DNA of 38,553 nt, from contig JACZUI010000022.1 of the NCBI GenBank assembly GCA_022573225.1, positions 1 to 38,553 on the forward strand. The letters are read 5' to 3'. The number at the start of each line of letters is the position of its first letter. Within the stretch, counting starts at the first letter, position 1. Below, in pieces: positions 20,875 through 24,805 of the stretch. Under the pieces are notes generated by a model, which was not told where the DNA came from, ran no database searches, and worked only from the letters and a program-made list of their open reading frames with translations. The DNA comes from Acidobacteriota bacterium (GTDB taxonomy: Bacteria; Actinomycetota; Acidimicrobiia; Spongiisociales; ZC4RG35). The position numbers were made by a program, and so were the translations under genes.

Positions 20875-21266
20875 TGGCGAAGCCACTCGTCCAGACCACT
20901 GGTAGACGCAAAGCTTCCGTCGCCAGGGTTCGTTTTCATGACGGCTCCGGCCAGATGACTCTGAATAAGAGGCCCCTCGAGGAATACTTTCCGACCATGG
21001 CCTCGCGGATGAGGATCATGGAGCCGCTCAATCTCACCGACACCCAGGGTCGTTACGACATCGACGCCACTCTCGAAGGTGGCGGTACCACGGGTCAAGC
21101 CGACGCTCTGCGCCTCGGGATAGCGCGGGCTCTCATCGCACTCGATCCCGAACTTCGCCCCACCCTGAGGAAGGCCGGGCTCCTCACGCGCGACTCCCGT
21201 GTCGTCGAGAGCAAGAAGTATGGCCTCCGCAAGGCGCGGAAGGCTCCTCAGTACACCAAGCGCTAG
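20874..21266 (+). CDS. rpsI: 30S ribosomal protein S9
   Basis: The 130-residue S9 starts [16 protein letters not shown] and ends [14 protein letters not shown]; the basic C-terminal tail touches P-site t[22 protein letters not shown] is conserved. The ATG shares one base with the rplM stop. It is followed by glmM after 13 nt, the actinobacterial order. Confidence 0.97.
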
Positions 21267-21280
21267 TGGCAGGCCACTAG
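21263..21280 (+). promoter_or_regulatory. Hairpin spanning the rpsI stop and glmM start
   Basis: CTAGTGG, a CAGG loop and CCACTAG make a perfect 7-bp hairpin that contains the rpsI stop codon and ends on the G of the glmM GTG. It may tune glmM translation by exposing or hiding the start. This is inferred from position only. Confidence 0.4.
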
Positions 21281-22644
21281 TGTCCGATCTCCGTCGTCTC
21301 CTGGACGAGGGCAAACCGATATTTGGCACCGACGGTGTTCGTGGTGCCGCCGGCTCCGACTTGACGCCGGAGTTGGCACTCGCAATTGGCAGGGCAGCCG
21401 GGTCCTACCTTCGGGGCGGCCCGGTTCTCATTGGGCGCGATACCCGGCGCTCCGGCGCAATGCTTTCTTCGGCGCTTCAAGCCGGATTCAATGCCGTCGG
21501 CATTGACACAGTCGATGTCGGTGTTCTTCCAAGCGGCGGAATCAGTCATCTCACGGCGACATCCGGGGCAACCATGGGTGCCGTCGTCTCGGCGTCACAC
21601 AACCCGGCCGACGACAACGGGATCAAGTTTCTCGCCGGTCGCGGCACCAAGCTTGCCGATGAAGTCGAACGGGAAATCGAGGATCGGCTTCGCTCAACGG
21701 GGTCAAAGACGGCCATTGGTCCTTCCATTGGAACTCGATTCCTCAAGTCCGATGCGCTGGAGGTCTACGTTGACCATCTGGTCGAGGCCTCCAAGTACAA
21801 CCTGAGCGGGATCGAGATCGCAGGGGATTGTGCTCACGGCGCCGCTTATCAAGCCGCACCAATGCTGTTCGAGCGTCTTCAAGCCGATGCCAAATGGTTC
21901 GGGGTCGAGCCCGATGGCACCAACATCAATGCGGGCTGTGGTGCGACCCACCCCGAGTATCTGGCGGGTCTTGCGGAGGGCAAGGTCGGATTCGCCTTTG
22001 ACGGCGACGCCGACCGCCTCATAGCCCTCGATGAGGACGGACGTGTCGCCAATGGCGATGTGATCATGGCGATCATCGCTCGTCATCTCAAAGCCCAGGG
22101 GAAGCTGAGGAAGAACCTCGTAGTCGCCACCGTCATGTCCAACCTCGGTTTCCGGAAGTCCATGGCCGAAGCCGAGATCGAGCTGGTCGAGACCAGGGTG
22201 GGCGACCGCTATGTAATGGAGAAGCTGTTGGCCAGGAAGGCCCTGCTTGGCGGCGAACAGAGCGGTCACATCATCTTTCTCGACCAAGGCCAGACGGGCG
22301 ACGGCCTTCTTACCGCGGTGAAGATCCTCGATGTCATGGCGGGGACCGGCAAGGAGATGCGAGAGCTTCGGGCAGAGGCAATCACTGAATACCCCCAGGT
22401 TCTTCAGAACGTAGAGGTGGGGCGACAGATCGACCTCACCGAGGCCGGCGAGCTTTGGGAAGCGGTTTCGGAGGTCGAAGAGGAGCTGGGCGAAGAGGGG
22501 AGAGTCCTGGTCAGGCCCTCGGGCACCGAGCCCGTTGTGCGGATAATGGTCGAAGCACCTACCGAAGACGATGCCAGGAGGTACGCTGATCATCTGGCAA
22601 CGGTGACACGAGCCTCCCTAGAAAGGATGATCGATAGGAAATAG
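21280..22644 (+). CDS. glmM: Phosphoglucosamine mutase
   Basis: GlmM converts glucosamine-6-phosphate to glucosamine-1-phosphate for UDP-GlcNAc synthesis. The 454-residue protein has FGTDGVRG, the active-site Ser106 in SASHNPADDNGIKF, the metal loop FDGDADR and the phosphate-binding RPSGTEPVVRIMVE. The start is GTG at 21280, where homology begins; the longer upstream frame overlaps rpsI and is a shadow. The next gene, glmS, makes its substrate. Confidence 0.96.
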   Translation: MSDLRRLLDEGKPIFGTDGVRGAAGSDLTPELALAIGRAAGSYLRGGPVLIGRDTRRSGAMLSSALQAGFNAVGIDTVDVGVLPSGGISHLTATSGATMGAVVSASHNPADDNGIKFLAGRGTKLADEVEREIEDRLRSTGSKTAIGPSIGTRFLKSDALEVYVDHLVEASKYNLSGIEIAGDCAHGAAYQAAPMLFERLQADAKWFGVEPDGTNINAGCGATHPEYLAGLAEGKVGFAFDGDADRLIALDEDGRVANGDVIMAIIARHLKAQGKLRKNLVVATVMSNLGFRKSMAEAEIELVETRVGDRYVMEKLLARKALLGGEQSGHIIFLDQGQTGDGLLTAVKILDVMAGTGKEMRELRAEAITEYPQVLQNVEVGRQIDLTEAGELWEAVSEVEEELGEEGRVLVRPSGTEPVVRIMVEAPTEDDARRYADHLATVTRASLERMIDRK

Positions 22645-22668
22645 ACGAAGCGTGCGTCACAAGAGATA

Positions 22669-22880
22669 GCGCCTGGCCTCACAGCACGGCCCATGGTGAG
22701 GATGTAGATCCTCTCCAGGTCTGACGGTTGCGAGGCGACGAGGAGGAAGGTCATCGAAACATTCGGCGGATACCTTCCCGGCCAACCACGGTCGTTACGT
22801 ATGAGAGCAAACCCCGGGAGTGATCCCGGTTCACAGAAGCTCATGCGAAGGGTGCCGGTTCCGATCTGAACCGGTCTGTC
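22669..22880 (+). ncRNA. glmS ribozyme / glucosamine-6-phosphate riboswitch
   Basis: The glmM-glmS gap matches the glmS self-cleaving ribozyme. The cleavage context A-GCGCC is at 22668-22673, so cutting is expected between A22668 and G22669. The core GACGAGG is at 22737-22743 and ATCGAAACATTCGGCGG at 22753-22769, flanked by the perfect 7-bp stem GGAAGGT (22745-22751) with ACCTTCC (22772-22778). CGCC (22670-22673) can pair with GGCG (22765-22768) as in the P2.2 pseudoknot. A P4-like stem (GTATGAG with CTCATGC, about 22797-22846) and a terminal hairpin CCGGTTC/GAACCGG follow. The 3' end is approximate. In the family, glucosamine-6-phosphate acts as cofactor for cleavage and glmS mRNA is then degraded. 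Confidence 0.88.
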
Positions 22881-22978
22881 GCACGCGATCTACCCACTTC
22901 CTTCCCCAGGCGTTGTCCGTTGGGGGAGGTGGAGACGGAGGGGGCTTCCCCTCCCAACACGAGAGGAACTGATCGCAT

Positions 22979-24805
22979 ATGTGTGGAATTGTTGGATACG
23001 TCGGCCCACGGCCGGTGATTGATGTCTTGGTGCCGGGGTTGGCTCATCTCGAGTACCGGGGTTATGACTCGGCAGGTATCGCCCTGAACCATGGCAACAG
23101 TTTGAGCGTGTTGAAGAGGGCGGGCCGGATCGCCGACCTTCGCCTATTGATCGACCAGGAGTCGCTCGACGACGCCATCTCCGGCATCGGCCATACCCGT
23201 TGGGCCACCCACGGCGCTCCCAACAGTGGCAATGCCCATCCCCACGTCGACTGCGACCGCGGAGTGGCCGTGGTCCACAACGGCATCATCGAGAACTGGG
23301 CCGTGCTCAAGGAGAAGCTGATCGGGGCCGGACACGAATTCGAAAGTGACACCGACAGCGAGGTCGTTGCTCACATGATCGAGGACATGGGTGACGTGCC
23401 ACTTGCCGAAGCGGTGCGTCGGGTGATGAATCAGGCCGAGGGCGCGTTGGCTCTCGCCGTGATGAGACGTTCGGAGCCGGATGTGCTGGTCGGCGCCAGG
23501 CGAGGGTCGCCCCTGGTGGTAGGTCGAGGAGACGGGGAGAATTTCCTTGCTTCTGACATCCCCGCCTTCCTCGAGCACACCAGGGAGATGGTGGTGGTCG
23601 ACGACGACCGGGTCGTGGAACTGAGAGCGGACTCGGTGTCTTTGACCGACCTCGAAGGCAACGCGATCGAGCCCGTCCAGCACAAGGTGGATTGGAACTT
23701 CGAGGCGGCCGAAAGGGACGGTTATCCCACCTTCATGCTCAAGGAGATCTACGAGCAGCCCCATGCAATCGCGGACACCCTCGCGGGCAGGGTCTCCCCC
23801 ACTGGCCAGGTGGTGCTCGACGAGCTCGAAATCGATGGCCGGATGCTTCGGGCCATCGACAAGGTGTTTGTCGTGGCCTGCGGCACGTCATATCACGCCG
23901 CGATGATGGCCAAGTACGCCATAGAGCGGTGGGCAAGGCTGCCTGTTGAGATCGACATCGCCTCGGAGTTCAGATATCGCGACCCGGTGCTCGACAGCCG
24001 GTCGTTGGTGATTGGGATCAGCCAGTCGGGAGAGACCATCGACACACTCGCTGCAGTCCGGTACGCCAGGGCACAGGGATCGCTGGTCATCGGCGTTTCC
24101 AACGTTGTTGAGTCGGCCTTGGCCCGTGAGGCGGATGCCGTTCTATACACGAGGGCCGGTCCCGAGATCGGTGTCGCCGCCACGAAGACGTTCACTACCC
24201 AGCTGGTGGCTATGCAATTACTCGGTCTCTATCTGGCACAGGTGCGAGGGGCAGTCGACCCCGGCGCTGTCGAGGTGCTGGTGACGGAGATGCTCCGACT
24301 GCCCGATCAGGTGGAGTCGGTGTTGTCGACCTCGGACGCCATCGAGAAGCTGAGTCGCGATTGGACCGACACCCGCGACTACTTCTTCCTGGGTCGTTCG
24401 GGAGACTTCCCGGTTGCGATGGAGGGGGCCCTCAAGCTGAAGGAGATTGCCTACGTCCGCGCCGAGGGATACGCGGCCGGCGAGATGAAGCACGGGCCGA
24501 TCGCGCTCATCGAGGAGGGCGTGGTTGTTGTTGGCGTCGTTACCGATAGCCATGTTCGGACCAAGACGCTCTCCAACATGGAAGAGATGAAGGCGCGCGG
24601 CGGGACCATTGTCCTCGTCGCGGAGGAGGGCGACGACGTCGGCAATGTGGCCGACCATGTCATCAGGGTTCCGGCCGGCCCGGATCTCTTGTGCACGGTC
24701 ACCGCGGTAGTGCCGCTACAACTGCTGGCCTATCACATCGCCACGGCGCGGGGCATGGACGTCGATAAGCCGCGCAACCTGGCCAAGACGGTGACTGTGG
24801 AGTAG
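22979..24805 (+). CDS. glmS: Glutamine-fructose-6-phosphate aminotransferase
   Basis: GlmS makes glucosamine-6-phosphate from fructose-6-phosphate and glutamine. The 608-residue protein has the N-terminal glutaminase domain with nucleophile Cys2 (MCGIVGYVG), GHTRWATHGAPNSGNAHPH, and two SIS sugar-isomerase domains (VACGTSYHAA, then EMKHGPIALIEEGVV). The end DVDKPRNLAKTVTVE is canonical. Length is complete. The ribozyme in its 5' region should give feedback control by its product. Confidence 0.97.
   Translation: MCGIVGYVGPRPVIDVLVPGLAHLEYRGYDSAGIALNHGNSLSVLKRAGRIADLRLLIDQESLDDAISGIGHTRWATHGAPNSGNAHPHVDCDRGVAVVHNGIIENWAVLKEKLIGAGHEFESDTDSEVVAHMIEDMGDVPLAEAVRRVMNQAEGALALAVMRRSEPDVLVGARRGSPLVVGRGDGENFLASDIPAFLEHTREMVVVDDDRVVELRADSVSLTDLEGNAIEPVQHKVDWNFEAAERDGYPTFMLKEIYEQPHAIADTLAGRVSPTGQVVLDELEIDGRMLRAIDKVFVVACGTSYHAAMMAKYAIERWARLPVEIDIASEFRYRDPVLDSRSLVIGISQSGETIDTLAAVRYARAQGSLVIGVSNVVESALAREADAVLYTRAGPEIGVAATKTFTTQLVAMQLLGLYLAQVRGAVDPGAVEVLVTEMLRLPDQVESVLSTSDAIEKLSRDWTDTRDYFFLGRSGDFPVAMEGALKLKEIAYVRAEGYAAGEMKHGPIALIEEGVVVVGVVTDSHVRTKTLSNMEEMKARGGTIVLVAEEGDDVGNVADHVIRVPAGPDLLCTVTAVVPLQLLAYHIATARGMDVDKPRNLAKTVTVE

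Follow-up and report, generated by a model that had tools for sequence, protein, structure and literature searches.

Our analysis showed that the leader of glmS in the window (the whole stretch of DNA analysed, 38,553 nucleotides) is occupied by a complete, ordinary member of the known glmS ribozyme class, in a lineage that rarely comes up in accounts of this class. Upon cmscan of the window, the Rfam covariance model of the glmS ribozyme (RF00234, gathering score 37 bits) matched positions 22657 to 22856 of the plus strand over its full length (model positions 1–167 of 167), with a score of 87.7 bits and an E value of 4.6e-19. This was the sole Rfam match above threshold in the window, and the 2.46 Mb genome contained one RF00234 match in all, that of the window. 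The original prediction had placed a glmS ribozyme between glmM and glmS and had proposed a run of the Rfam glmS model with Infernal as a check, and the full-length match above the gathering score bears it out. Since the model picks up the window ribozyme readily, the ribozyme belongs to an already known class. Judging from the sequence, we consider it very likely that the element is a genuine and probably active glmS ribozyme, with cleavage as predicted below.

Structure of the window ribozyme

Helix pairing was checked over 57 distinct sequences of the host's order, the window counted in, and in the sequence alignment the helix pairs were kept and covaried across them. Helix names follow the usage of the glmS literature, and core contacts follow the description for B. 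subtilis (PMC11602151). All features given here are on the plus strand. The AGCGCC cleavage context lies at 22668–22673 and is aligned to the AGCGCC of the model. By analogy with the family, self-cleavage is predicted between A(−1) and G(+1), A22668/G22669, which is 24 nt past the glmM stop codon (22642–22644) and 310 nt upstream of the glmS ATG; the coordinates first proposed for the cut, and its distance from the glmM stop, were correct on the sequence. CGCC (22670–22673) pairs with GGCG (22765–22768) to form the four pairs of the P2.2 pseudoknot, which were invariant and paired in 57/57 sequences. The GACGAGG active-site strand (22737–22743) and the P2.1 pseudoknot (C22739–G22756 and G22740–C22755) were likewise invariant in the 57 relatives. 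The core strand AUCGA...UUCGGCGG at 22753–22769, which reads ATCGAAACATTCGGCGG, is aligned to the model.

P2 (22745–22750 with 22773–22778) had all six pairs in 57/57 sequences, and its first and fourth pairs switch as pairs between the G-C and A-U types. The supporting domain formed by P3/P3.1 and P4/P4.1 is also present. In P3 (22779–22783 with 22790–22794), four pairs were found in 57/57 sequences and the fifth in 54/57. P4 (22799–22805 with 22840–22846), which is the 7-bp closing stem noted originally, showed many compensatory pair types and paired cells well over shuffles in the 57 sequences. P4.1 (22814–22819 with 22824–22829) was paired in 53–57 of the 57, with compensatory pair types, and is capped by a GUGA tetraloop at 22820–22823. 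The P3.1 pseudoknot of the window has 3 bp: read by eye, only ACC (22785–22787) with GGU (22851–22853) can form. Most relatives have a longer P3.1, and their aligned rows, also read by eye, showed the matching changes CUCAC/GUGAG, CCCAC/GUGGG, and UUCAC/GUGAA. The cleavage context, the GACGAGG and second core strands, the closing stem, and the P2.2-like pairing of the original prediction could thus all be read in the sequence.

P1 (22676–22736) is unusually long, and its proximal pairs vary among relatives and still pair. It measures 63 nt from GCGCC to GACGAGG and folds as one continuous, imperfect stem of −31.8 kcal/mol (z −3.7), equalled by 1 of 200 shuffles. In relatives, P1 ranged from 16 to 63 nt, and in the window's family from 18 to 63 nt with a median of 24. 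The window had the longest P1 among the parsed relatives, and that of locus L025 was 59 nt. The lengths of L004, L019, and L033, for which the automatic parse took a wrong upstream GCGCC, were left out, and the re-parse took the nearest AGCGCC. An extra hairpin had been described in this region, GGTGAGGAT/ATCCTCTCC, but it is the tip of the single continuous long P1; a separate hairpin at 22695–22716 is ruled out by the continuous stem in the fold.

We have also identified an accessory hairpin, GCCGGUUC/GAACCGGU, at 22854–22875, directly after P3.1 and beyond the Rfam model, with an 8-bp stem of −12 kcal/mol (z −4.4). Its sequence varies among members of the order. A perfect stem of 5 bp or more after P3.1 was found in 38/57 relatives versus 14.5 expected from dinucleotide shuffles, and in 8 of 57 in a control zone. 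By folding energy, the zone after P3.1 was no more stable than shuffles, and only the fixed position of the stem stands out. The enrichment of the putative accessory hairpin is therefore a modest result. Further downstream, at 22937–22954, a 7-bp GGAGGGG/CCCCUCC hairpin lies right before the GAGAGGA ribosome-binding-like site of glmS.

Compared with the RF00234 ribozymes of B. subtilis and Thermoanaerobacter tengcongensis, the window ribozyme has the same cleavage site, P1–P4.1 layout, double pseudoknot core, GNRA loop on P4.1, and position in the glmS leader. It differs from them in its high-GC Acidimicrobiia host, its long P1, its 3-bp P3.1, and the hairpin directly after P3.1, which is common in the window's order. 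McCown et al. 2011 reportedly described structural variants of the glmS ribozyme in Deinococcus-Thermus, with additional core stems. Those are alike in being glmS ribozymes outside Bacillota, but the core of the window ribozyme is of standard length.

Host and distribution

The host belongs to Acidimicrobiia (Actinomycetota). The closest named GlmS proteins, at 83% and 73%, come from MAGs of Acidimicrobiia, among which the trees also placed the window, in agreement with the actinobacterial host suspected originally. A survey of neighbouring lineages, also suggested at that stage, found the ribozyme to be nearly universal in the order: it was present in 29/34 genomes of the window's family, and in 123/138 genomes and 57/61 genera of the order. 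The ribozyme was missing from 15 genomes of the order; of these, G054 alone had a full-length glmS, two others had C-terminal pieces of GlmS, and the rest had no GlmS match. Most of these absences are explained by incomplete assemblies. In G054 (locus L210), a full-length glmS lies about 500 bp from glmM with no recognisable ribozyme, which is an apparent ribozyme loss. In the window's own family, no GlmS protein match was found in four genomes of genus g14 (G023–G026; 59–82% complete) or in G033 (95% complete); here GlcN6P synthesis may have been lost, or the assemblies may have gaps.

In a sample of the class, 161/395 genomes scored above the cut-off, and those outside the order were mostly of one genus with genomes of about 1 Mb. 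In a sample of the phylum, 75/396 were positive, and those apparently beyond the class included families f61, f71, f77, f82, f93, f96, and f120. The ribozymes of f82 (L202, 4129–4371) and f77 (L200, 9870–10061) are structural variants: their core hairpin loop carries long insertions, of about 58 nt in f82 and about 17 nt in f77, and the f82 ribozyme has AGCGCA where AGCGCC is usual. Among 76 other named GlmS loci, the core motif was found only in that of a Bacillota MAG (L095). In all loci examined, glmS followed directly after the ribozyme, which in the window's family lay 24–253 nt past glmM. One genome with a normal ribozyme also had a second, sub-threshold RF00234 match of 26.3 bits (G131:C72:18760–18922). 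Our literature search, whose reach did not include McCown et al. 2011/2012, found no report of a glmS ribozyme for Acidimicrobiia.

Gene context, proposed action and other readings

The upstream gene, glmM (phosphoglucosamine mutase; ORF as listed, 21199–22644, plus strand), matched TIGR01455 with 491.9 bits (cut-off 447.6). The match starts at residue 42, so the true start of glmM is probably further in than that of the listed ORF. The downstream gene, glmS (glutamine–fructose-6-phosphate transaminase; 22979–24805, plus strand), matched TIGR01135 with 790 bits (cut-off 418). In B. subtilis, too, glmM lies directly upstream. Cotranscription of glmM and glmS appears likely because of the 24-nt spacing, but it is not assured, since a weak promoter-like match lies within glmM at 22603–22631 (two such matches were found on both strands, versus 0.6 expected). 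No intrinsic terminator was found past the ribozyme on the plus strand between 22645 and 22978.

From the sequence, structure, conservation, and gene context, and from an RNase J gene in this genome (TIGR00649, G000:C23, 507 bits versus a cut-off of 400), we infer cleavage, ligand, cotranscription, and decay as follows. GlcN6P, on accumulating, would bind the core of P2, P2.1, and P2.2 and act as the cofactor for cleavage at A22668/G22669. The downstream product, glmS with a 5′-OH end, would then be degraded, probably by the RNase J of this genome; in B. subtilis, decay of the 5′-OH glmS fragment depends on RNase J1 (PMC3997798). The upstream fragment of a glmM-glmS transcript would retain glmM and a 24-nt trailer. 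The outcome would be a feedback repression that acts on glmS and spares glmM, as can reasonably be expected from B. subtilis and from the RNase J of this genome. In enterobacteria, glmS is controlled by GlmY/GlmZ/RapZ, that is, by trans-acting small RNAs and a protein adaptor (PMC4908143, PMC3997798). This is likewise a GlcN6P-related control of glmS via RNA, but unlike in the window it has no self-cleaving leader.

It is highly improbable that the element is a decayed or inactive ribozyme kept merely as a structured leader. The short P3.1 and the longest P1 of the sample could be read in that way, as could the score of the window, which is below that of most family members (up to 111 bits), but all core nucleotides checked equal the consensus, and the P2.1 and P2.2 pairs are all intact. 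Moreover, the added length falls in the variable tip of P1, and loss of the ribozyme next to a full-length glmS was found in just one genome of the order. With the cut immediately past the glmM stop and glmM-glmS adjacency common within the order, the RNA might instead chiefly separate the glmM and glmS messages by constitutive processing, and not be a metabolite switch. We give very little credence to this, as in 25 of 25 loci parsed the ribozymes of f71 precede glmS and the 1.5 kb upstream contains no glmM, so that the shared partner is glmS, and the cofactor-binding core is wholly kept.

Bacillota are the best-known hosts of the class, and one GlmS type of the order, that of f4–f8 and not that of the window, groups with a Clostridia MAG; both points would fit a recent transfer in which ribozyme and glmS were acquired jointly from Bacillota. 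However, the GlmS of the window lies among Actinomycetota, adjoining Acidimicrobiales (98/98* for the wider group), and the ribozyme is order-wide, a single clade for all ribozymes of the order being acceptable by the AU test (p 0.41). Bacillota are represented in the tree by one ribozyme, that of L095, which is distant and on a long branch. Such a joint acquisition is therefore very unlikely.

Two GlmS types behind one ribozyme

The GlmS proteins of the order form two unrelated clades, both of which are found behind the same glmM-ribozyme arrangement (loci L172–L194, L210, and L211). Type A, in f1, f2, and f3 and including the window, is about 61–83% to the window and groups with Acidimicrobiales and other Actinomycetota. 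Type B, in f4–f8 plus f12, is about 42–51% to the window and stands apart, adjoining the Clostridia MAG. Forcing the GlmS of the order into one clade gave a tree 110 log units worse and was rejected (AU p 2e-17).

In a tree of GlmM, RplM, RpsI, and TruA of the same loci, the order was one clade (100/100*), and f3 (type A) stood beside f7 (type B) with 96/98*. In this tree, the type B hosts as one clade were rejected (p 0.007), and the type A hosts as one clade were not (p 0.21); the result was alike in an earlier tree that also contained the f12 rows, which have long branches. The ribozyme tree placed f3 with f5 and f7 (98/86*) and f2–f8 together (91/87). Forcing f1, f2, and f3 together made it 27 log units worse, which was not rejected (p 0.12). 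Paralogous glmS copies as the source of the two types are ruled out among the 14 order members checked, each of which had at most one full-length GlmS and none of which had both types.

With ribozymes of one kind, at one position, preceding the glmS genes of both clades, it seems that glmS was replaced and the ribozyme stayed. We lean slightly towards the reading in which the ribozyme is resident in the locus of the order, and a distant GlmS took the place of the earlier one there on at least one occasion, and probably on two if f3 is counted. Replacement under the ribozyme is likely and not proven, since the alignment behind the ribozyme tree comprises no more than 142 columns.

An entire order of uncultured Acidimicrobiia thus has, as its usual control of glmS, a ribozyme class mostly discussed for Bacillota, and the class is also present in several further actinobacterial families. 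If the replacement is true, the incoming GlmS enzymes fell under a pre-existing GlcN6P control. One RNA before two unrelated GlmS proteins offers a naturally occurring test of whether regulatory RNAs can persist longer than the genes under their control.
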